Positions 17,666 through 40,971 of a stretch of DNA of 64,000 bases are shown here, piece after piece. The translations under genes and the position numbers were made by a program. Position 1 is the first letter of the stretch, and every line of letters begins with the position of its first letter. The stretch lies in the NCBI GenBank assembly GCA_943787425.1, contig CALSMJ010000001.1:124001-188000 (forward strand), given 5' to 3'. The notes under the pieces are model-generated. The model did no database searches and was not told the DNA's origin. It saw only the letters and a program-made list of their open reading frames with translations. Source of the stretch: an uncultured Pseudomonadales bacterium (lineage in GTDB: Bacteria > Pseudomonadota > Gammaproteobacteria > Pseudomonadales > Azotimanducaceae).

Positions 17666-17714
17666 TCCAGCTTAGCGTGGACTTTGGTCGTCGTACACCA
17701 AACACGCTTAATTA

Positions 17715-17816
17715 GCATCCGGAGTGGGACTTGTTCCCCGCCAACCTGCCTACCCAGGCAAGGTGGTTCGAGAATGTGGCCGAAAGGCAACCAATTGGGT
17801 TCTCTCATTCCGATGC
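17715..17816 (+). promoter_or_regulatory. Structured 5' leader (candidate cis-regulatory RNA)
   Basis: A long closing helix can be drawn between 17715-17729 and 17803-17816: GCATC pairs with GATGC and the pairing continues with GGA-TG-GA against TC-CA-TCC with few mismatches. Inside lie a hairpin of about 11 bp with mismatches (17741-17767, loop ACCC) and a GCC-GAAA-GGC tetraloop hairpin (about 17779-17788). The ribosome site AAGGAG (17825-17830) begins just after the closing helix. I could not match it to a known riboswitch class. Confidence 0.4.
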
Positions 17817-27904: not shown

Positions 27905-28783
27905 GTGGCAAAAAAAGTGCAGACCAGAGTCGAGAGGTCACAGGTAAAAGGTTTGCTCTGGCGAAAAAAAGTTGATTCGACCCTGTTAAACCAGCAACAA
28001 ACTCCACTTCCAGTTTGGATTCTAGAACTATGGAAACATAATGGCTTATCAGTTCCAACAACCAAGGAAAAACTCAAGGAATTTCTTGTAAAAATGGATG
28101 GTGGACTTTTCTCGTCCTCCATTACAAGCAGAAGAAAAAAGAACAACTACCAATACTATCTTTCGTTTGATAACGAACTGGGTGAAAAACTTAAGCGTAT
28201 TTTTCTGATGTCATTTATGCGATCGATTGAAGCTGAGCTAAGTGGCAAAAAGAACCACCAACACATTGAGGCCACCATACCATTTTGGGAATTCCTGGAT
28301 ATTGAATATATCCCTTCCACCCAAGCTTTCAAATTAACCGCGCATTACACAATTCCTCCTCAATTCCCCAACTTGTTCGCACAGCTCTCCTCATCTGCGG
28401 CACTCAAGGCTGTTGCGATGAGCGCCAACGACCACGTTGAGCTTAAAATCCATAAACAAGGTTGGAGATCAAGAGAGCACTACAAGCAAGAAATCGGCGC
28501 ATTTAACGTTATTTACACCCTAATCGATACCAAAGAAAAACTGGTATACGTAGGGGAAGCAAAAAACTTGAAAAAGCGATTAGACTCGGGGCATCCGGAA
28601 ATTTCCAATTGGAACTTTTACCGATTCAACGTTTTGCCGAGAGGGATGAACAATAGAAACAGACTAGAGCTGGAAAGAATGGCTATCAGAGACCTAGCTT
28701 CCCTCCTACCCAACGAAAAAAATCAGGACTTAATTGAGATTTCCAGTTTCAAACTCGTAAACAAGAAAATCGACATTCTATAA
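27905..28783 (+). CDS. GIY-YIG nuclease domain protein
   Basis: 292 aa, GTG start immediately after the methyltransferase stop. The C-terminal third (about 200-275) holds a GIY-YIG fold: FNVIYTLIDTKEKLVYVGEA gives the two Tyr strands, KNLKKRL the Arg helix and NRLELERMAI the metal-binding Glu. The first 200 residues are basic and unrecognised (possible DNA recognition domain). Pairing with the methyltransferase suggests a modification/cleavage couple. Its 3' end overlaps the sspD 3' end by six bases (convergent). Confidence 0.78.
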   Translation: MAKKVQTRVERSQVKGLLWRKKVDSTLLNQQQTPLPVWILELWKHNGLSVPTTKEKLKEFLVKMDGGLFSSSITSRRKKNNYQYYLSFDNELGEKLKRIFLMSFMRSIEAELSGKKNHQHIEATIPFWEFLDIEYIPSTQAFKLTAHYTIPPQFPNLFAQLSSSAALKAVAMSANDHVELKIHKQGWRSREHYKQEIGAFNVIYTLIDTKEKLVYVGEAKNLKKRLDSGHPEISNWNFYRFNVLPRGMNNRNRLELERMAIRDLASLLPNEKNQDLIEISSFKLVNKKIDIL

Positions 28784-29635
28784 ACTACAAATAATACAGG
28801 CTTGATCCTCAGGATCGTCGTCTTCGCCTGCCTTCAATACATCCTGCCATCTATCAGAGCTAATCACGCCATCAGCGATTTGCTTCTCACGCTTCTGCCG
28901 AGCATGCTCTACGATTTCCTCTAAACTACCGCTCTGGCTCCAGGTATAACCAATACCGCCGACAGCAATTTCCCCAGCGTCCCATGAAAATTTTGTACGT
29001 TCCCGTGTTTCGTAATCTCTTGCTTGCTCAAATAAGTCGGGATGATTCTCTTTCAATCCAAGCCACTCATCCTGCCTTTGGAAAAAACAAAAGTAGCAAC
29101 CCGAGCGAGACCGCCACTTGTAGTATTCAGGAATACCAATCGTGTCTTCAAGTAACTTAAACACGTCATCTCGAATCAAACCGTCTTCAATGAACGGAAA
29201 TACAGGGTGTATATTGGGTTTACCTTCAGATTTATAACCGTCCCGGAATTCATCAGCTCTAATCCCTACATAGCTGACAACCCTGTCTGTCCCTACAAAA
29301 TCCTCGAAGGGTTTTATTTTCATCTCTCGAGTACACCAACGGATTTTCGGAGATGGCAGTAGGCCATTGTGCATCTTGAGATGATGATCAAAATCCCGTC
29401 CACTACTAAGGCGAATAATTTCTTTACCTAGGTAGGCCTCTAGCTTGTCAAGGAACTCATAAGCCTCCTTAAGCTCAGCTCCTGTATCAGAGAAGAAATA
29501 CTCCACTTTCTCATGAATTTCCTGATAGTTCTCTTTGATATAAATAGCTAGAGCAGCGCTGTCTTTTCCGCCCGATAAACCTAAAACGTGTCTAAAGCCT
29601 TCCCTCTCAGCCAAATCCTTAAAAGATTCATTCAT
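28778..29635 (-). CDS. sspD: SspD/DndC-like ATP pyrophosphatase (PAPS reductase family)
   Basis: 285 aa. The PP-loop SGGKDSAA (21-28) binds ATP; RWCTREMKIKPF and SGCYFCFF supply cysteines seen in DndC-type proteins, and the C-terminus ends in a further Cys pair (ACIICSL). In single-strand DNA phosphorothioation SspD activates the backbone and hands sulfur from a cysteine desulfurase to DNA. No sspA-like desulfurase lies in the window, so sulfur may come from a housekeeping IscS, as known for some related systems. It overlaps the sspC end by eight bases. Confidence 0.87.
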   Translation of the reverse strand: MNESFKDLAEREGFRHVLGLSGGKDSAALAIYIKENYQEIHEKVEYFFSDTGAELKEAYEFLDKLEAYLGKEIIRLSSGRDFDHHLKMHNGLLPSPKIRWCTREMKIKPFEDFVGTDRVVSYVGIRADEFRDGYKSEGKPNIHPVFPFIEDGLIRDDVFKLLEDTIGIPEYYKWRSRSGCYFCFFQRQDEWLGLKENHPDLFEQARDYETRERTKFSWDAGEIAVGGIGYTWSQSGSLEEIVEHARQKREKQIADGVISSDRWQDVLKAGEDDDPEDQACIICSL

Positions 29636-31592
29636 CTATATCTCCTTTAGCAGCCTTATACTCAACCCCACCCTCTTCATCCTTTTCGGTCAGATCGGGA
29701 GCTAGCGTTTGAGAAAGCAACCTCGCCAGACAAGCTGCTCGTAGGTCCTCATCCATCAACATGATTTCAGCCGTTATTTTGCTTAAGGACACCGCAATTT
29801 TTTCTTCAACTAAGCTGTCCAAGACAACCACTTTTTCTATAGGAGAATCTCCCTTTCGCAACGCTTTCAAAAGATAAAAGTCAATATTCGGGTCATTGAT
29901 GTCGCTGCCTCTGGTCTCCAAGCGAATCTTCTCTAGATCATTAATTTGCCGTAGATAATCTCGCAAGCGATACATTGCCGAATTAAAATCGTTATCACTC
30001 CACTTCTGAGATGGCTTTCGGCCTAAAAACATTAGAACGTTTTCAAACCATTCATCATTATTGGCTTGGACTTTAGTTAACCTTGCGATAAAAGCGCTTA
30101 TTCCGATTGTATCTGCTGAGTACTGATCCAGGCCATACAAGTTCCCGCAAGTACGTCGAGTCTCAGCCAGAGAAATCTCTTCTTCCCTTCCTAGGCCTTT
30201 ATTCAACGCCTCCCTAAAGCGATCGACCATCTGAGGATGACAACGCGAGAACTCTTTGATTACGCCCATTAGCGCAACAGAAAACTCTTCTAGCTCCTCA
30301 TGTTTTAATTTAGAGGTGCCAGAAAAACCTAAGGCACCCGGGAGGTTAAAAAAGATAAGGTCATTCGGTGACTTAGCCATGTTGAAAGCACTTCTGACCT
30401 TCTGTGCGCGGTCGGACAGGCCTTCCCTTGTCACCTGAACATATTCGGGGAGATTCCCCATAAACGACGCTAGGGGCTTAACAAGGTCTAGCACGGATTT
30501 CTGACTTGACTTTTTCTTAGCTTGGTTAGTCAAGCCAAATGCTTTTTCGTAAGAGTTAAATATCGACTCATTGAGTCCTTCAATCTTAAAGTATTGAAAA
30601 GTAAATTCGTCAGGGCGTTTCGCGAATCGTTCCGCCATTTCAACTGTGAATCTAGGCCTAAACCTTCTGTTTTCAAAAACACCTATAGAGCTTTGATTGA
30701 CTAAATAGACCGCGAAATAAAGAAGCGGTAGCACACCAGCCTTTACGCCATACGGCGGCATCATTAGTTCTTCGTTTAATCCTACCAATGATTTCGGCTC
30801 GGAATCGGTCGATTCGATAAATCGCTCGATTCGTTCCCATACCGGTATTACACCCCCGGAGCTATCATCAGTAGGCTTCTGAAGGAAACAAGTTGCCCCT
30901 ATTTCATCAGGTACAATATGAATACCCGTTTCCCGAAACAGTGCTCGGTACATTGCTTTTTCCGCTGGGAAAGACGCTGACGAAAAGCCTAGGTCGACCT
31001 CATCAGAGTGCGAAAGCATTGCCGCCATAAGCTTATTTCTTGCCATCACGGCTTGTCCGGATGGACGATCCCGATTAATCAGCTCATTTTTAAAGGTCGG
31101 GGCGTAAGGGTAAATCCTCTGCAGGCATTCAGATAACCTTTGTTGCAGATCCTTCTTTTGATTGACCGCTAGTAGTTCTCCTCTAAACTCCCACCGATGC
31201 ACTTGAGGCTCTTGCAGGAATCCTGAAAGCACAGCCTCTTCAACTTTTTCAGCACTTGTTAGCCGATCCTGGAATTCCTTTTTCGCAACAGGGTCACGTT
31301 CCAATTCATGGCTTGATGACCCTATCCTTCGCAGCGCAATGACCTCACCAACTGCCGAGCGGATATAGTCAGAAGTACTACACTCAATCAAGATATCAGA
31401 ACTTGAGAAAAACTTGTGTATTAAAGGAAAAGTCCTTGAATCGTCAGTTCCATAAGACAAGAAAAATATCAACCTAGGGTCTTTAGACTCCTGAGGGGCT
31501 TTTAGATAGGACTTGGCATCAACAAACACCGGACGAAAATATCTAAGCGCAGAATTCTCTATCGAGTAACGTTTAGCAACTACAGGGAGCAA
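29628..31592 (-). CDS. sspC: SspC-like ATPase, C-terminal part (separated by a frameshift)
   Basis: 654 codons from a TTG, with no ribosome site of its own. The sequence is mostly helical and has no separate catalytic motif that I can see. Its frame stays open upstream to a point inside the end of the sspC N-terminal part, where removing one C from the CCC at 31633-31635 would join ...ELGSLG to QFPVADELNRSDR and give one protein of about 1160 aa. That is the length I would expect of a complete SspC-type ATPase. So this is the second half of one gene, split by an indel or by a real mutation. Confidence 0.78.
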   Translation of the reverse strand: MLPVVAKRYSIENSALRYFRPVFVDAKSYLKAPQESKDPRLIFFLSYGTDDSRTFPLIHKFFSSSDILIECSTSDYIRSAVGEVIALRRIGSSSHELERDPVAKKEFQDRLTSAEKVEEAVLSGFLQEPQVHRWEFRGELLAVNQKKDLQQRLSECLQRIYPYAPTFKNELINRDRPSGQAVMARNKLMAAMLSHSDEVDLGFSSASFPAEKAMYRALFRETGIHIVPDEIGATCFLQKPTDDSSGGVIPVWERIERFIESTDSEPKSLVGLNEELMMPPYGVKAGVLPLLYFAVYLVNQSSIGVFENRRFRPRFTVEMAERFAKRPDEFTFQYFKIEGLNESIFNSYEKAFGLTNQAKKKSSQKSVLDLVKPLASFMGNLPEYVQVTREGLSDRAQKVRSAFNMAKSPNDLIFFNLPGALGFSGTSKLKHEELEEFSVALMGVIKEFSRCHPQMVDRFREALNKGLGREEEISLAETRRTCGNLYGLDQYSADTIGISAFIARLTKVQANNDEWFENVLMFLGRKPSQKWSDNDFNSAMYRLRDYLRQINDLEKIRLETRGSDINDPNIDFYLLKALRKGDSPIEKVVVLDSLVEEKIAVSLSKITAEIMLMDEDLRAACLARLLSQTLAPDLTEKDEEGGVEYKAAKGDIDE

Positions 31593-31611
31593 TCTATCGC
31601 TTCGGTTCAGC

Positions 31612-33120
31612 TCATCTGCAACAGGAAACTGGCCCTAAACTGCCAAGCTCCTCGCTAACAGCTTGATCAAGGTCAAAATCGCTGCCTTGCCATACTCGGT
31701 ACTCACCGCTGAATTTTTGAAAGCTTACTAGCGACTGGCGTTTTAATTTGCGAAGGACTTTGTTGTACGTTTTGTTACCGAGCAATGAGGAGATATTTAG
31801 CAAGCCGTCCGAGGCCTTTAAGCCACCTTTAACTCCAATGATATTAAAGAGGCCAATAGTTTTTAACAGGTTGATTTCGTCCTCGCGTAGATCTGAGGCT
31901 CTATCAAGACAGGACAACACCTCTGCCCATCTTTTCTGAGTAATAAAATCGGCGGTCGCTAAACTTTGATTGTGCACAAAATAATCGAAAGCATGGTGAG
32001 GCAACACGAATTCGCCAGGATCAAGGCTCGCCAGCATTGCTAGAACGCCAAAGTCCTCACGACTACCCAAATAACTGAATAAAGTTCGTTCGTTTTGCGC
32101 GATTTTCTGACAAAGATGAGGCAGCAAAAGAGCCGTGACAGGGTGCAAAGGGTAACAATTCTTAAAAAGGCTTTCCGCACCCGCTTTGTCTAAAGAACTT
32201 GGCAATAGATCTTTAAATGATTCATCACCTATAACAGCATTGACCTGTTCAACGATTTTCAGATTATCGACTTTCGAGCAGCTGTTATTAAACACTTTAC
32301 CGACAATCTTTAGCGTCTGCTCGGCAGATTCAAGAAAAGGTATTTCTTCGAACCGTCCCTGAATTTTACCCCACTCGTTCTTCAACGTTTCCGACAAACC
32401 TTTGGCGTAGCGCTCCATCGATTGGTGAAGAAGAACGAAGTTGAGAAGTAAAAAAGTATCGTCGGCACTGGACTCTTCAGCCAAACTTTGCAGTAAGTAA
32501 ATATCGTTAGCACCGTAGTGCCTGACCTCATATTCAAGGAACTTTCCAAGCTCATCTATGATGAATACCAACCCTGCAACTCCACAGCGCTTCAGATCGG
32601 CTTTCAAGCCTCGCATTAACCGCAGAAAATCGGCGTGAGACACTTCGCCCGAATCTAATGCCTCTAAAATATCAGCTAAAATCTTTGGGTTCCTGCCTTT
32701 TCGGCCACTAAAAAACTCTAGTGCTTGAACATGCATGGCGGAAAGAAGCCGAGCAGCTAAAGGTTCAGGAGCTCCGACAACAGATATTACGAGGCAATCG
32801 GCGGCTTTCGATTCCAATTCACTACGAAGTTCAGGATTCCCTTTCCCTAACAGCTCAAAGGCAGCGCGTTTGCCATCACCTTGTAAACCGAGCAGGTGAG
32901 AGACAAATAGGGCGAACGAAGACTTACCCGAACCATATGGACCGACTAGAGACCATGACCTCTGAGCAACTCCCTTAACTAAAACTCCGGATACCTTCTC
33001 TAGAGTCCGCAACGCTCTCGATGTTGGGATATAACCATTGAGAAAGTCCGCAGCGTGCTTATCTCGATCCAAATTAACCGAGCGGGTGTGACGGTTATTC
33101 ACGGTTATAGCCAGCGTCAT
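31612..33120 (-). CDS. sspC: SspC-like P-loop ATPase, N-terminal part
   Basis: 502 codons. Walker A is GPYGSGKSSF (60-69) and Walker B is VFIIDELGKF (about 184-193), with an AAA+/STAND-like surround. SspC is the ATPase of the SspBCD DNA phosphorothioation complex; its N-terminal start MTLAITVNNRHTRSVNLDRD and the neighbours (DUF4007 upstream, PP-loop protein downstream) fit that role. The frame ends shortly after ELGSLGP; the remainder continues in the next frame at 31592. The ATG overlaps the sspB stop (ATGA), so the two are translationally coupled. Confidence 0.85.
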   Translation of the reverse strand: MTLAITVNNRHTRSVNLDRDKHAADFLNGYIPTSRALRTLEKVSGVLVKGVAQRSWSLVGPYGSGKSSFALFVSHLLGLQGDGKRAAFELLGKGNPELRSELESKAADCLVISVVGAPEPLAARLLSAMHVQALEFFSGRKGRNPKILADILEALDSGEVSHADFLRLMRGLKADLKRCGVAGLVFIIDELGKFLEYEVRHYGANDIYLLQSLAEESSADDTFLLLNFVLLHQSMERYAKGLSETLKNEWGKIQGRFEEIPFLESAEQTLKIVGKVFNNSCSKVDNLKIVEQVNAVIGDESFKDLLPSSLDKAGAESLFKNCYPLHPVTALLLPHLCQKIAQNERTLFSYLGSREDFGVLAMLASLDPGEFVLPHHAFDYFVHNQSLATADFITQKRWAEVLSCLDRASDLREDEINLLKTIGLFNIIGVKGGLKASDGLLNISSLLGNKTYNKVLRKLKRQSLVSFQKFSGEYRVWQGSDFDLDQAVSEELGSLGPVSCCR

Positions 33121-34228: not shown

Positions 34229-34664
34229 CGCTTACCCTTATGTTATGTAACATAGGTACTTTATCAGCAAATTTCAGACCCTCCAACTCCCATAACTTTG
34301 ACAAAAAAGTATGAAAAAGAGCCTGTGATCTGAATCTCACTTTGACAACTTCGTAGGTTTCAATTTCTTCGAAATAAGAAGATATCGAAGAGTCACAACT
34401 CTTAAGTGGGTAGGACAACTCAAATCTAGGCAACTATCGAAAACTATTAGTTAACTCTAGTCGAATTCCACCGTCGACATTATATCCTCCGGGAAAGTCT
34501 CGCAGAATTGGACCGCAAAGATCACTAGTTGATTCTGGGTCTAGAATTATTTCATTCAATTCATCGACTACATCGAAAACAGCATTGGTAAGCGATTCAT
34601 GAAAACCAGAAAAATAATTGGCCCCTAGAGCACGACCCAAGACTGACTCAGCACAAGGCATCAA
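34215..34664 (-). pseudogene. Small open frame interrupted by an in-frame TAG
   Basis: A 76-codon frame (34664 to 34434, MMPCAESVLGRALGANYF) ends in TAG, and the same frame continues for 72 codons (to 34215) with no ATG near its beginning. The downstream half would have to start at the TTG that directly follows the stop, without a ribosome site. I read it as one gene of about 149 codons with a nonsense codon, lying between the retron-type RT and the ssp operon on the same strand. The family is not recognised. Confidence 0.45.
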
Positions 34665-34743: not shown

Positions 34744-35574
34744 CTAAGAAACTTCGGTGTTTTTCGCCTGAATCATCCGCACGTAGTTTTTATATCCCTC
34801 TAACTGCTTTTCAGTCATCGTAGCTTCGATTTTGTTTTTAAGCCTGTGCTCAACGGCCCTGAGCTCCCGGCGTTTTTGTCTAGAAATCGTCGTTTTACCA
34901 CTGTTAATGGTCACACCACAGATTCTCTGTGCCTGATGCTTTCTAAGAATATGAAATTTCCCACGGCGTCGATTAAGTCTGAAACCGGCGCTTCTCAGCC
35001 TGTGGTTCACAAAAGAAATCGTTTTGTGTATCTCTTTGCGATCATCTTTAGGCAGGGAAATAGTTATATCATCAGCATAGCGAGAGTACTTATATCCTCT
35101 CGACCAACAGTAATACCAAATCAACTTATCGACCTCTCTGAGAGCGAGGTTAGACAGCAATGGGCTTGTAGGAGCACCTTGTGGTAACCCGCCTTTTGTC
35201 GTCACTAGTTCAACGAGCTTATCTTCAACGGATTTTGTCAAAAATAATGGCTTGAGCAGTCGACGACATCTTTTTACTGAAACTCTTGGAAAAAAATTAA
35301 TGACATCAAGCTTGATTACTACCGCAGCACCAATATGGACCTGCGCGTTAGTTTTAATGTTTCGAAACTTCTTGTATGAGTGCACATTCCTACTAACGCG
35401 ATGTCCGAGTTTACTCGCCAGATACGTCAGCAATTTCTTCTGAAGCGCCTTAAGTTTTGGGTTAGGTACCTGCAAATGACGTGAACCGCCGGTCCGCTTG
35501 GGAATTTTAAATGAGGCATATTCGACCTCAACATCGAAAAATTCTTTTTCTTGAAGCGCTAATGCATTAAGCAA
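34744..35574 (-). CDS. Retron-type reverse transcriptase
   Basis: 276 aa from a TTG start; the frame is open about 30 codons further upstream without an ATG, so the true N-terminus is uncertain. The retron NAxxH motif is NAQVH (76-80), the first catalytic Asp lies in IKLDVINFFP, QGAPTSPLLSNL is the conserved QG block, and the active site is RYADDITIS (Y-A-D-D 166-169). QRICGVTIN (216-224) stands where retron RTs have the VTG thumb motif. It would copy part of an adjacent RNA into multicopy single-stranded DNA; a fitting structured RNA lies immediately upstream. Confidence 0.9.
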   Translation of the reverse strand: MLNALALQEKEFFDVEVEYASFKIPKRTGGSRHLQVPNPKLKALQKKLLTYLASKLGHRVSRNVHSYKKFRNIKTNAQVHIGAAVVIKLDVINFFPRVSVKRCRRLLKPLFLTKSVEDKLVELVTTKGGLPQGAPTSPLLSNLALREVDKLIWYYCWSRGYKYSRYADDITISLPKDDRKEIHKTISFVNHRLRSAGFRLNRRRGKFHILRKHQAQRICGVTINSGKTTISRQKRRELRAVEHRLKNKIEATMTEKQLEGYKNYVRMIQAKNTEVS

Positions 35575-35749
35575 GGCACTGCTATTTGCTTCTCGGCGTG
35601 CTTTAGAACGGGAGTAGCTTTGAGCACGGTGGAGCCTTAACTCTGAAAAAAACTATTGCTAAGATCCCTAGTAATAGAAAGAGCACCAGCGCATCTTCTA
35701 TCGCCCCCATAGCAGCATCCCCAGTTTTTCAAAAGGAAGCCCCCTTTCG

Positions 35750-35965
35750 GGGGCTGCTATGCCTATAGGGCTTCTAATTAACTTAGTGTGCGCGGAAATT
35801 CGCAGAATTTTGGCGCACACTTCGTTAATTAGTTCCTTTTAGCGGATCTAAACGCAGTTTAGATTGTCTGCTCGTTTGGAAGTGCCCTTGCGCAGCTAGC
35901 GCAAGTCGAACATCGTGAGCGGCGAAGCACCGCTCTGTACCCGAAGGTACCGCCATAGCAATTAA
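35750..35965 (-). ncRNA. Candidate retron msr-msd RNA
   Basis: Read on the minus strand, this region upstream of the RT gene is a chain of hairpins. First comes an a1-like arm (TGCTATG, from 35960 to 35954), then GTACC-TTCG-GGTAC (35937-35950) and GAGCGG/CCGCTC (35917-35935). CTTGCGC/GCGCAAG (35887-35905) and ATCTAAAC/GTTTAGAT (35846-35864) follow. Next is a long msd-like hairpin of 9+9 bp around a 2x2 internal loop (35774-35832) with an inner AAATT/AATTT stem, and last the a2-like arm CATAGCA (35761 to 35755). The a1/a2 pairing, short msr-like stems and one long msd-like stem match the known retron layout. A GC-rich hairpin with a TTTC loop (35738-35755) follows. Confidence 0.72.
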
Positions 35966-36045: not shown

Positions 36046-36438
36046 CTAAACCGCCACCCCAAACCAAATAAGACAAACCAGTCCAATAATCCAACCAAAA
36101 AGGGAAATCCCCATCACGTCACCAACCTCAAGATCGGGATACCCAGTGCCGACTTTCCCCTCAACAGCAGCTCGATATAGCCAACTCATTGAAAACGGAA
36201 AAAACAAAATGGGCAGCAGCCACCAAATATTTTCGATCGCAGCGGTAACACCCAATAAAAGCATCACTTTCTCAAAAATCCAGCATACCCGCCACCAATC
36301 AGCCGCATCACTTTCAGGTGAAAACAGGTTGTCCTCATAAAACTTCTTGGGCTCGACATAGCGCATGACTTTCCTAAATGACTCGCTCTGCCCCTTTCTC
36401 TTTCGCCGCTTGTACCATTTTCTAAGCCTAGCTTTCAT
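36046..36438 (-). CDS. Membrane protein of the radical SAM/DUF763 operon
   Basis: 130 aa from the ATG at 36438, which overlaps the radical SAM stop in an ATGA. A very basic N-terminus (MKARLRKWYKRRKRKGQ) is followed by hydrophobic segments IFEKVMLLLGVTAAIENIWW, LLPILFFPFSMSWLY and MGISLFGWIIGLVCLIWFGV. It is the last gene of the coupled operon. The family is not recognised; a membrane effector or anchor is possible. Confidence 0.65.
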   Translation of the reverse strand: MKARLRKWYKRRKRKGQSESFRKVMRYVEPKKFYEDNLFSPESDAADWWRVCWIFEKVMLLLGVTAAIENIWWLLPILFFPFSMSWLYRAAVEGKVGTGYPDLEVGDVMGISLFGWIIGLVCLIWFGVAV

Positions 36439-37223
36439 ATTGGGTGCGCACTCCATTTGATGGGACTAATCGCATTCGTCAATAGATCGTGTTCACGCAA
36501 CCGCTTTCGAACTTTCGGGAAGAGTTTGATCCGCTCCACCTCAAGCGATTTCAAAAGCCCAGGCCACAAATCATAAAGTCGCCGCTTAGCAGCTTTGATT
36601 GACGCCTGGTCAGAGAACGAAACGCTCAGACAAGCGTTGCAAGAGATACCCGCTGCTATGAGTGTCTCCAACGCCTTGAACGGCAGCTCATACGCCGAGC
36701 TTTGTGCGCCGGTGAGCTTATGAAACTCCTCTGGACAACACCCCTTCATCGAAACTCGTACGTGTAGGTTCTTAAAGCGCTTGAGATCTCTGACGTACTG
36801 TTGGTCAGAACCGAGGATCATGCCATTCGTCTCCAGAACGTAGGTGTAATCCGACTGATCAACCAGTTCGAGAAGTTCCAACAGATGCTGCTTGCCCAGC
36901 GTACCCTCGGAGGCAGATGCTGAAATGATTTTCGTGTTGTACTTCCGCGCCGCTCGGTCAAGACCATCGAACACTGCCTGCGGTGAGTAAAATTTCCCTA
37001 CGCGCCCCGGTTTCCAAACAGGCTTGTCACTGAAGCAGAACTTACACCGCAGGTTACAACCGACTTCGGTTGCGCTGATTGAGCCGCCATAAAACCTGAG
37101 CCTTCGGCCTAGCTGCACGTATTTTCTTTGATTGCCGCGAACGACCACCTTTTCGGTGGCCGCCGCGAGCGCTATGGGATCATACCCAGGCTCTTTATCA
37201 ACGCTTGCCATAGAGCAACCCAT
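36435..37223 (-). CDS. Radical SAM protein
   Basis: 262 aa. VGCNLRCKFCF has the CxxxCxxC cluster motif (Cys56, 60, 63) that binds the 4Fe-4S/SAM site; the (beta/alpha) barrel continues with ISASASEGTLGKQHLLELL, YVLETNGMIL and HVRVSMKGCC. It looks like a MoaA/NrdG-like enzyme without a SPASM extension. The start could be 37223 or 37211; neither has a good ribosome site, and both overlap the DUF763 end, so coupling is likely. The substrate is unknown; pairing with DUF763 is the main clue. Confidence 0.85.
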   Translation of the reverse strand: MGCSMASVDKEPGYDPIALAAATEKVVVRGNQRKYVQLGRRLRFYGGSISATEVGCNLRCKFCFSDKPVWKPGRVGKFYSPQAVFDGLDRAARKYNTKIISASASEGTLGKQHLLELLELVDQSDYTYVLETNGMILGSDQQYVRDLKRFKNLHVRVSMKGCCPEEFHKLTGAQSSAYELPFKALETLIAAGISCNACLSVSFSDQASIKAAKRRLYDLWPGLLKSLEVERIKLFPKVRKRLREHDLLTNAISPIKWSAHPI

Positions 37224-37833
37224 TCTGGGTATCCATGATTTTGCGTGTAAGACCCTTTACAACCGTACCCATGAACGTTTTACCGCCGCTGTTTTCCGCG
37301 TGGCTCCATTCAGACTCGATCAACTCACCGAGGAAATCCAGCGGCGTGCCGATTGATTCTCCCGCCACAGCAACCTTGTGCAAACGTTTCAGCGCCGCAG
37401 ATTTATCCTTGTCACCAAGCTTTGCCGCATCAACGCTGTTCTGAAGCATCGAGACCGTCTCGTCGAACGACTTCTCATCAATTGGGTGCGGGCGACCATC
37501 CTTGCCGCCGACCGCGAAGGAAAACCGGGCTGGATCTTCAAACCGCGTTGCGTCGCCGTGAATGACCTCGCTGGCCATAGCAAGCGCCTTGAGCGTCCTG
37601 GGTCCCACCCCTTGCATCATCACCAGATCATCAAACTGCTCGATGTCGCGGTTGTAGGCTAGGTTCAAGACGGAGCCCAGGCGCGCCATATTCACATCAC
37701 CCTTGCGCACATCGTGGCGATCCGGCAGTTCAAGGCTTCGGAGGGCTTCAATCACCTCACCTGGTCGATCTTTGGTTAGCGCGACCATATTATTGCGTAG
37801 GCTACTCGCCTCGCCGTCAACGAGGTTCAGCAC
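37198..37833 (-). CDS. DUF763 protein, C-terminal part (frameshifted)
   Basis: 211 codons. The upstream frame can be followed to VESFVNRPHTGIVGIEQQQV, which continues the DUF763 domain from the gene part at 38428. Removing one base at the CC of 37890-37891 would fuse both into a protein of about 410 aa, the usual DUF763 length. This half holds VMMQGVGPRTLKALA, a helix-hairpin-helix element that suggests DNA binding. Confidence 0.78.
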   Translation of the reverse strand: MLNLVDGEASSLRNNMVALTKDRPGEVIEALRSLELPDRHDVRKGDVNMARLGSVLNLAYNRDIEQFDDLVMMQGVGPRTLKALAMASEVIHGDATRFEDPARFSFAVGGKDGRPHPIDEKSFDETVSMLQNSVDAAKLGDKDKSAALKRLHKVAVAGESIGTPLDFLGELIESEWSHAENSGGKTFMGTVVKGLTRKIMDTQNGLLYGKR

Positions 37834-37873
37834 CTGCTGCTGCTCGATCCCAACAATGCCGGTGTGCGGTCGA

Positions 37874-38428
37874 TTAACAAACGATTCTACCGTAGGGCGA
37901 ATGCCAGTGGTAGCGCCGCGCGCGTCGCGTCTGACGATTCATGCCCTGAGAAATACTGGTCCACTCCCCTTCATCCGATAGGATGAAATACTGCTGATAC
38001 AGTCCATAGCCGTCCTGCACGGCGTTGTTGTCAACGCGGCGCGTTAGATTGCACGCATGCACAAGCTCCTGACCTGGCAAGCCGTGATTGTCCGACACCC
38101 GATTGATCTGCTTGGTCGTCCAGCCCATCCGTTTGCCCTTGCCGCCGAGAATGTGCAGCCCCAGCGTTTTCGATCTCGGGTTAATCTGCCGCTGCAACGA
38201 ACCCAAAACGGTGGCCGTCACGCCCGATGAGTTCCAGTGCATGCCCATCACCGCGCCCAGCGCCTGAAACCAGTTGGGATCGGACATCCTCGTTAGGACC
38301 TCCGATTTACCATAGTTTTCAACAATTGATTCAACGATGGCATTCCCCATCTTGCCCATCCGCTCGGTTAAGAAGGACGGGACTCGTCCGAAATGGAGTG
38401 GCATTCCGATTGTTCCTGCATTGATCAT
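37874..38428 (-). CDS. DUF763 protein, N-terminal part
   Basis: 184 codons with several DUF763 signatures: GMPLHFGRVPSFLTERM, WFQALGAVMGMHWNSSGVTA, GLHILGGKGKRMGW, QDGYGLYQQYFILSDEGEW and ARRYHWHSP. DUF763 proteins occur in archaea and scattered bacteria; the function is unknown. The ATG at 38428 overlaps the stop of the ImmA/IrrE gene (ATGA) and has GGAG six bases upstream. The frame breaks after SPYG because of one extra base; the remainder is at 37833-37198. Confidence 0.82.
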   Translation of the reverse strand: MINAGTIGMPLHFGRVPSFLTERMGKMGNAIVESIVENYGKSEVLTRMSDPNWFQALGAVMGMHWNSSGVTATVLGSLQRQINPRSKTLGLHILGGKGKRMGWTTKQINRVSDNHGLPGQELVHACNLTRRVDNNAVQDGYGLYQQYFILSDEGEWTSISQGMNRQTRRARRYHWHSPYGRIVC

Positions 38429-39778: not shown

Positions 39779-40971
39779 ATGCGAAGCAATCGAGTGACCC
39801 AATCCGACATCGGCAGTTCAAGACCCTATAAGACCGTCTCAGATTTTCTAGAAGAGGATTCTTTTACCGGATTCACGCAGGAGCATCTCTTCATTAAGCG
39901 CTTTATAAAAAATGCCTGGGGACAGGATATTGCCGCACTATCCAATATGGCCGAGGCAATCGCCGGTCTCTACGCTCTAGAGCTAATCGACGATGAAACG
40001 GCGCGGCATCGCCTCAACATGATTGTAAACAGAGCGCTTCACAAAAGCGTTCGGCCCTACAGTGGAACATTGGAGAACCAAAGCTCGCTGGGTTTGTATG
40101 GGTACTACCTCGAGCACCTTAATATTATTCTGGGACACTTCCAGGCCGCCGGCGACAATAAGCACCTGACGCTCAACGAACGCATCACAGTACATCTGCG
40201 AGACCTATCCTTAGAAGCAATCGAACGTCCACGCACCCCTTCTGCCTCACGTCAGGATGCGCTGGAGCGCAGATCAGGCCGCGATTATTCATTCAATTCA
40301 TTTGTTCGATCAAAACAACGGCACAACGCATCACGAAGCGCTAGCTGACCGGTGGCTTTCAACAATGAAACAGCGCTTCACTCATCAATCCGGGTTGTTT
40401 CAAACGGAGGTCATGAACTGTAAGGCTTATTCGAAAGAGCCACGCGGTTGCGCGGGTGCCTACCTCATTTACTACATGAGCGCCTTTGCGCCGGAAACCG
40501 CCGAAGCAACAGTGGGCCTTGTATAAGCACAACCTGATGACCACTAAGTTTGGCGTTACAGGCGTCAGGGAGTACCTCCCCGCCTATCGCGGCCGCTGGA
40601 CGCCCGATTCCGGTCCAATCATCAGTGGCATTGGCGTTGCTGCATCAGGGCTAGCGCTTAAGACCGCCGCACGAGTTGGCGATCTTGAGACCTATGACCG
40701 AATTGCGCGCTGCGCGGATCCCCTGATAGCCACGTGTCATGCCATTCAGTCGATCCCATTACTCGGAATCGTTGGGAAGATTGGCAGTGACCTGCTGGCC
40801 TCTTCCGTCAGACTTACGGCGCAGGTTGAGGCGATTCGCGACAGATCTAATTCCAAAGAATGCGTCTTAAATCTCGAGGCCAGATTTCGAACAACTCGTC
40901 AACGACTGTTTAAAACACAAGAATTTTTCAAACAAATTAAACAGGAGGCACAAACACAATGGGCATATTAG
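39779..40971 (+). pseudogene. Unrecognised protein of about 395 aa broken by two frameshifts
   Basis: Three overlapping frames read as one protein: 39779 to about 40260 (MRSNRVTQSDIGSSRPYKTV ... ERPRTPSASRQ), about 40258 to 40506 (WSADQAAIIHSIHLFDQNNG ... YMSAFAPETAE) and 40507 to 40971 (QQWALYKHNLMTTKFGVTGV, REYLPAYRGRWTPDSGP, GIGVAASGLALKTAARVGD). One extra base at 40258-40264 and one extra G at 40506 cause the breaks. Aromatic and helix-rich repeats and the SGP/GIG motifs recall alpha/alpha-toroid enzymes, but I cannot name the family. It is flanked by two tiny membrane proteins in the same operon. Confidence 0.6.

Follow-up and report, generated by a model that had tools for sequence, protein, structure and literature searches.

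A reverse transcriptase (RT) gene and the structured RNA encoded upstream of it, located in a 64,000-nt stretch of DNA from an uncultured Pseudomonadales bacterium (hereafter the window), are on balance best assigned to a retron lineage that lacks a separate effector gene and tethers its RT to the membrane through the N-terminus. We infer that the best reading of the locus is a self-contained retron, the RT of which would make msDNA at the membrane. A conserved lineage devoid of a toxin, in which the RT is apparently membrane-bound, would represent either a minimal retron with a single protein or one that serves a purpose other than defence.

The protein encoded by the RT frame carries NAQVH in region X, which fits the NAxxH pattern, as well as the catalytic motif YADD, both as claimed by a previous sequence-only reading of this DNA. 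Pfam assigns it to the reverse transcriptases, and it is the sole RVT_1 match in the 3.26-Mb genome. In PADLOC, retron models came out on top (RT_XIII, III-A, and II-A), the best being RT_XIII with 210 bits and a best stretch at 125–272, and no PADLOC type fits well. Among the NCBIfam families, the St85 type (NF038233) scored 199.2 bits, far above group II introns (82 bits) and Drt2 (58 bits); membership of this type was rejected, the curated cut-off being 235 bits. Comparison by sequence with the solved structures of the PDB ranked Ec86 first at 97 bits, followed by other retron RTs, and the first 16 Foldseek matches of a structure model of the RT (folded with 12 rows, mean pLDDT of 82) were all retrons, again led by Ec86 (7v9x), with 26% identity in the fold alignment. 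Region Y reads ICG in place of the expected VTG, a departure that could speak for a non-retron RT preceded by an unrelated structured leader. However, three members of the clade described below (L098, L101, and L116) have VCG in this region, and the profiles, the fold and the conserved a1/a2 RNA all oppose this explanation, the probability of which is negligible. Profiles and fold likewise argue against an RT of a non-retron clade, an outcome that the sequence-only reading had named as grounds for abandoning the retron.

On the minus strand ahead of the RT, a candidate RNA of ~206 nt runs from 35960 to 35755, its ends being perfectly complementary over 7 nt (Table 1). This strand folds at −116.2 kcal/mol between 35970 and 35690, vs. 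−85.05 kcal/mol (SD 5.04) for 200 dinucleotide shuffles, none of which folded as low (0/200; z = −6.18), and the fold bears out the short stems and the long stem of 9+9 bp in the plan that had been proposed for the RNA. An unpaired G-N-G directly follows a1, as it does in the nine relatives modelled below, and the priming guanosine is expected to lie within it. The long hairpin is likely msd and would serve as the template of msDNA. A covariance search with Rfam, one of the checks suggested for this locus, returned no retron-like match at the gathering score in the window, and on the RNA stretch itself just two unrelated matches (E-values of 2.1 and 4). Elsewhere in the window, Rfam recognizes a SAM-I/IV riboswitch at 17710–17804 on the plus strand (68.5 bits). 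PADLOC has msr-msd models of its own (PMC9252829). Plasmids searched with the RNA by blastn gave no match.

Table 1. Features of the retron locus, in coordinates of the window
Feature	Position	Strand	Basis and remarks
a1 arm, TGCTATG	35954–35960	−	Sequence; perfect 7-bp complement of a2
msr stem-loop 1	35937–35950	−	Fold; corresponding helix (helix 2) covaries in relatives
Stem-loop 2	35917–35935	−	Fold; 8-bp stem, 3-nt loop; helix 3 of relatives
Stem-loop 3	35887–35905	−	Fold only; no alignment to relatives
Stem-loop 4	35846–35864	−	Fold only; no alignment to relatives
Long hairpin (likely msd)	35774–35832	−	Fold; adjoins a2, like the last hairpin of relatives
a2 arm, CATAGCA	35755–35761	−	Sequence; complementary to a1
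Terminator-like inverted repeat, GC-rich, with T-rich tail	35731–35755	−	Sequence; between RNA and RT
Small frame from ATG (putative N-terminus of RT)	35603–35710	−	Contains one stretch of strong hydrophobicity; joins RT frame at a seven-T run
Retron reverse transcriptase frame	34744–35652	−	302 codons; open reading frame, retron profiles and predicted fold

Apart from the gene itself, no RT above 39% identity was among the matches listed from the genus (14 congeners and the own genome), from 397 other sampled genomes of the phylum, from plasmids (10 of 30 plasmid records lay outside the matches listed, all at <60%) or from phages; a single-protein scan of viral contigs gave no match. When a six-row alignment was run against a collection of 84,980 species, at least 80 loci were recovered, the best listed being 42% identical, and nearer relatives may exist. 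Eleven of these loci (L093–L101, L105, and L116), ten from Planctomycetota groups and one (L100) from Methylomirabilis, encode short RTs, the C-terminal end of which is shared, and have one upstream plan in common. Its 5′ part consists of an a1 ending in TGG, a hairpin and a second hairpin of the form GGCTGATG-TTT-CGTCAGCC or similar, the counterpart of stem-loop 2 of the window, whereas its 3′ part comprises a variable sequence with a last hairpin, an a2 beginning with GCA, a GC-rich hairpin and the RT. In these eleven relatives the RNA measured 108–149 nt, including a few flanking bases.

Nine of these relatives were aligned and folded into a covariance model, from which the window, L096 and L116 were kept out. 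Paired changes occur in the alignment at 13 of the 23 predicted pairs; over the 20 pairs retained, 96.7% of cells pair, vs. 85.3% in shuffles and 32–52% with partners slid, and double changes are found at 11 of the 20. The a1/a2 helix shows double changes at four of its seven pairs and the helix of stem-loop 2 at four of eight, the latter with 100% of cells paired. Four of five covariation measures beat all 500 shuffles, whereas the fifth, the number of further pair types, fails to do so (16 vs. 17.9). When applied to the 64-kb window, this blind model finds the RNA at 35965–35861 on the minus strand (27.2 bits, E = 3e-4), the next-best match having an E-value of 8.9; the model sets the 3′ arm too early there because the RNA of the window is longer. 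In the complete 3.26-Mb genome, the same RNA is the only match listed at E ≤ 10 (E = 0.015; 150 of 503 first-look candidates scored). The two relatives left out were also found, L116 at 56.9 bits and L096 at 50.1 bits. The nearest of the remaining 69 scan loci was L172 (E = 0.022, just upstream of the RT), followed by L124 (E = 0.16) and by five weaker ones, and 90 other RT loci (viral, plasmid, or phylum-mate) gave no match to the model at E ≤ 5. Judged by sequence comparison, the structured RNA is real, its helices having been kept by paired changes in the relatives. The retron identity first claimed for the locus is thus backed by covarying RNA in the relatives, by the RT profile and by the RT fold, and the second ground named for abandoning it, relatives devoid of conserved upstream structure, clearly failed.

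Two profile searches delineated the wider clade. Among 392 Planctomycetota genomes (at most five first-look candidates scored per genome), 28 scored at least 338 bits, followed by one partial match at 286 bits and the next at 270 bits; among 298 genomes of the class to which the genome of L099 belongs, a partly overlapping sample (at most seven candidates per genome), 23 scored at least 303 bits. These searches yielded 47 loci at which the RT scored at least 285 bits, and 45 of them have the RNA at E ≤ 0.05; the 47 include four loci already in the covariance model (L175, L176, L204, and L205, i.e., L099, L101, L093, and L098, respectively). The two loci without it are L212, where the contig extends just 237 nt upstream, and L221, where the RT match is partial. 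At the seven lower-scoring loci listed, the RNA accompanies the partial RTs L224 and L225 and is absent from the other five, including L223, which has two weak matches (E = 0.74 and 0.96). Two tandem copies of the RNA precede a single RT at L180 (2563–2934, minus strand) and L186 (1115–1397, plus strand). Closer to the window, nothing beyond its own gene scored above 243 bits in its class (369 genomes) or above 193 bits in its family (200 genomes), and the 11 loci listed from these class and family searches gave no match to the RNA model. No description of the clade appeared in the literature listings searched; its novelty is provisional, the main retron classification lying outside the comparison.

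How closely the window is related to this clade depends on the tree. A quick tree of 104 rows sets all 53 rows of the clade on one side of a branch (SH-aLRT of 95), with the window outside and joined at 85 to three long-branch viral rows. A careful tree of 76 rows, from which nine outsiders and 19 clade rows were omitted, instead makes the window the sister of the clade (90/87, not starred). The RT phylogeny that had been proposed as a check therefore supports a divergent sister of a clade sampled mainly in Planctomycetota, a position that does not hold in the larger tree; both trees lack a non-retron outgroup and hence are no proof of retron kind. With a clade profile that omits it, the window RT scores 264.6 bits, vs. 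at least 332 bits for the untruncated members and 269 bits for the best of 50 outsiders. As this score is level with those of outsiders, the RNA, which is recognized by a model built without the window, is a firmer link to the clade than the RT score.

The N-termini of the clade RTs suggest where such proteins would reside in the cell. Mean hydropathy reaches at least 1.6 over 17 residues ahead of the RT core in 16 of 48 classed RTs, with L177 borderline at 1.61; these 48 are what remains of 55 rows without L175 (duplicate), L202 and L225 (truncated), and L187, L194, L197, and L224 (unclassed). In 29 of the other 32 the start is followed by Gly, typically in MGLFDWIKRLLG or MGFFDFLKRLF, a count inflated by a choice of start codon that favoured a following Gly. 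The short hydrophobic N-terminal motif of clade RTs reads MGLF..., and since the helical moment of these short N-termini beats shuffles (p ≤ 0.1) in just 10 of the 32, it is from the motif that membrane binding is proposed for them. In Melainabacteria, L156 (6799–6817) and L172 (6673–6845) have the second RNA hairpin without such an anchor before the RT, and therefore this hairpin may predate the clade.

In the window, no ATG, GTG or TTG precedes TTG 35574, the first usual start of the RT frame, and initiation there would fall inside the portion of the RT that aligns with relatives. The small frame starts at ATG 35710, 44 nt past a2, has a hydropathy of 2.84 over 17 residues, and joins the RT frame at the seven-T run 35646–35652; the RT-frame residues in between form a basic linker resembling that of the transmembrane-type relatives. 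By analogy with these relatives, the small frame would be the N-terminus of the RT, the hydrophobic stretch and the RT occupying different frames in the assembly. Because sspC and the DUF763 gene are also frame-changed, and possibly the region 39779–40971, assembly error and real break are equally likely, and a programmed frame shift at the RT start is possible. The lack of a usual start ahead of TTG 35574, together with a hydrophobic stretch that is out of frame with the RT, could also betray a decayed retron, the RT being a remnant that lost its own start. Yet 302 codons have stayed open, the catalytic motifs and the RNA arms are intact, and the broken sspC and DUF763 genes suggest errors of assembly or a general decay, not a defect specific to the RT, all of which renders a decayed retron very improbable. 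As to these other genes, sspC (29628–33120, minus strand) consists of two frames (SspC positions 6–497 and 517–1063) with a break near 31592–31612, where no base is repeated six or more times in a row; the DUF763 gene (37198–38428, minus strand) is divided into two frames near 37833–37874; and the overlapping same-strand frames 39779–40348, 40257–40526, and 40486–40971 (plus strand) might be one gene broken twice.

Downstream of the RT lie a small frame (34434–34664) without a Pfam match, then SspB, the split SspC and SspD; the earlier observation that a broken small frame and ssp genes, and no usual retron effector, follow the RT was confirmed. Nor do the relatives share a neighbouring gene: of the 399 frames located within 5 kb of the RT across 51 clade loci, the most widespread family, which we take from its motif to be sulfatase-like, spans four loci, vs. 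15 and 10 loci for the largest neighbour families at 32 control retron loci, a set rich in type XIII. Given that relatives are likewise without a recurring neighbour, the absence of an effector looks normal for the lineage and does not suggest a local loss. Of the proposal that the effector was either lost or of a kind not yet recognized, the absence of an effector gene stands, whereas loss in this genome looks less likely. The genome may encode an effector at another site; more speculatively, the RT's own anchor could itself fill that role.

An ordinary three-part retron with a local effector would have to recruit the 136-aa membrane protein, the radical SAM protein or the downstream small frame. 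The 136-aa protein (36046–36456) is hydrophobic and encoded upstream on the same strand. It has no homologue in the 14 congeners, and the radical SAM protein has none in 119 other genomes of the family, so both may have arrived with an island. Against this explanation, which we consider improbable, none of the candidates was matched by tblastn at the 51 clade loci (nor was the first DUF763 piece), the 136-aa protein belongs to no PADLOC, Pfam or NCBIfam family, and its gene overlaps that of the radical SAM protein, suggesting membership of that pair. The two overlapping genes span 36046–37223 on the minus strand; the radical SAM protein is weakly viperin-like in PADLOC (E = 2.7e-5), and no homologue of it was found in plasmids and viral contigs.

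A tie to the ssp system, also put forward earlier together with a search for conserved retron and ssp adjacency, did not survive comparison. The retron does precede the ssp operon in the window, on the same strand, which speaks for a working part of that system, but SspB, both SspC parts and SspD had no tblastn match at any of the 51 clade loci (0/51), all of which were recovered with the RT query (51/51), and this explanation is scarcely credible. A GIY-YIG domain gene (27905–28783, plus strand), barely over the Pfam cut-off with 23.6 bits, borders the end of this operon on the opposite strand.

Retron RTs prime at a G located after a1. Priming from the 2′-OH of a guanosine is described in one report (PMC8867640), and another presents the RT and RT-DNA as neutralizing an effector until phage elements perturb the RT-DNA (PMC12548924). 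If the self-contained retron favoured here behaves as known retrons do, its transcript would fold, the RT would prime at the conserved G after a1 and copy the last hairpin into msDNA, and many transcripts may stop at the hairpin between the RNA and the RT, so that RNA would outnumber RT. The 70-nt segment after a2 in the window has a z-score of −2.71, and its lowest fold pairs a C run with a later G run; across loci, the median z-score of this segment is −2.42, and z is below −1.5 in 42 of 54 (shuffles preserved single-base content only, and the value of L184 is void owing to Ns). A terminator-like hairpin in this position suggests an excess of RNA over RT. Extending the scheme further, the RT-msDNA complex would be located on the inner membrane and, more speculatively, phage damage to the msDNA would free or rearrange the anchor, the membrane being the target in place of the usual toxin. 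That the RT itself is the effector, i.e., that one protein and one RNA suffice and the membrane segment is held harmless by msDNA until phage disturbance, can be advanced only tentatively; if true, it would make this a one-gene membrane-acting retron spread chiefly in Planctomycetota.

A membrane-tethered retron of the same lineage could instead have a non-defence role and supply a small DNA for some cellular use. This alternative is rather unlikely, yet serious because few defence genes lie near the clade loci. The relatives stand alone among housekeeping genes, a single copy of the element is found in each of four genomes searched whole, and the Pfam families listed for clade neighbours (25 of 83) are mostly metabolic and translation genes. 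PADLOC (E ≤ 1e-20) matched three models with one protein each, and no retron effector, in 139 of the 146 listed clade neighbours (up to two from upstream of each locus and one from downstream, all <900 residues, seven large ones being left out), whereas SWIM_XIII alone matches 13 of 93 neighbours of control retrons; no direct sign of defence was seen around the clade loci in PADLOC or in Pfam searches of neighbours. On the other hand, the copy in the window adjoins the ssp defence operon, and the clade is patchy, occurring in 28 of 392 Planctomycetota genomes and in none of the 14 congeners of the window, a distribution that suits a mobile, dispensable gene. Whatever their role, the short conserved RNAs of the clade might serve as compact msDNA makers.

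Most retron types consist of an RT and an RNA paired with a toxin, either as a separate gene or as a fused domain. Ec86 (type II-A), the best match of the window RT by sequence and by fold, resembles the window in that its RT is preceded by an RNA with end arms and stem-loops. Its effector is a nucleoside deoxyribosyltransferase (the title of 7v9x reads “in complex with its effector”), whereas no such gene was found at the locus in the window. RT_XIII is the best PADLOC model not only for the window RT but also for all eight clade RTs scanned (8/8). However, L109, taken as a true type XIII RT, scores 622 bits vs. 210 for the window, and type XIII RTs differ by a long N-terminal region and, beside the control RTs, by SWIM and HEAT/ARM partners. 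Type XIII membership was rejected on this score and on the absence of a SWIM or HEAT/ARM partner in nine other scanned genes of the window and in the 139 clade neighbours. In type IV (Ec48-like) retrons, a two-transmembrane effector encoded by a separate gene acts at the membrane, whereas the clade relatives carry the hydrophobic segment on the RT itself. The one-gene retrons RT-Toprim, RT-protease (XI), and RT-TIR (XII), each listed by PADLOC as a single gene, have a C-terminal enzyme domain added to the RT, whereas the clade RTs gain only an N-terminal hydrophobic segment.
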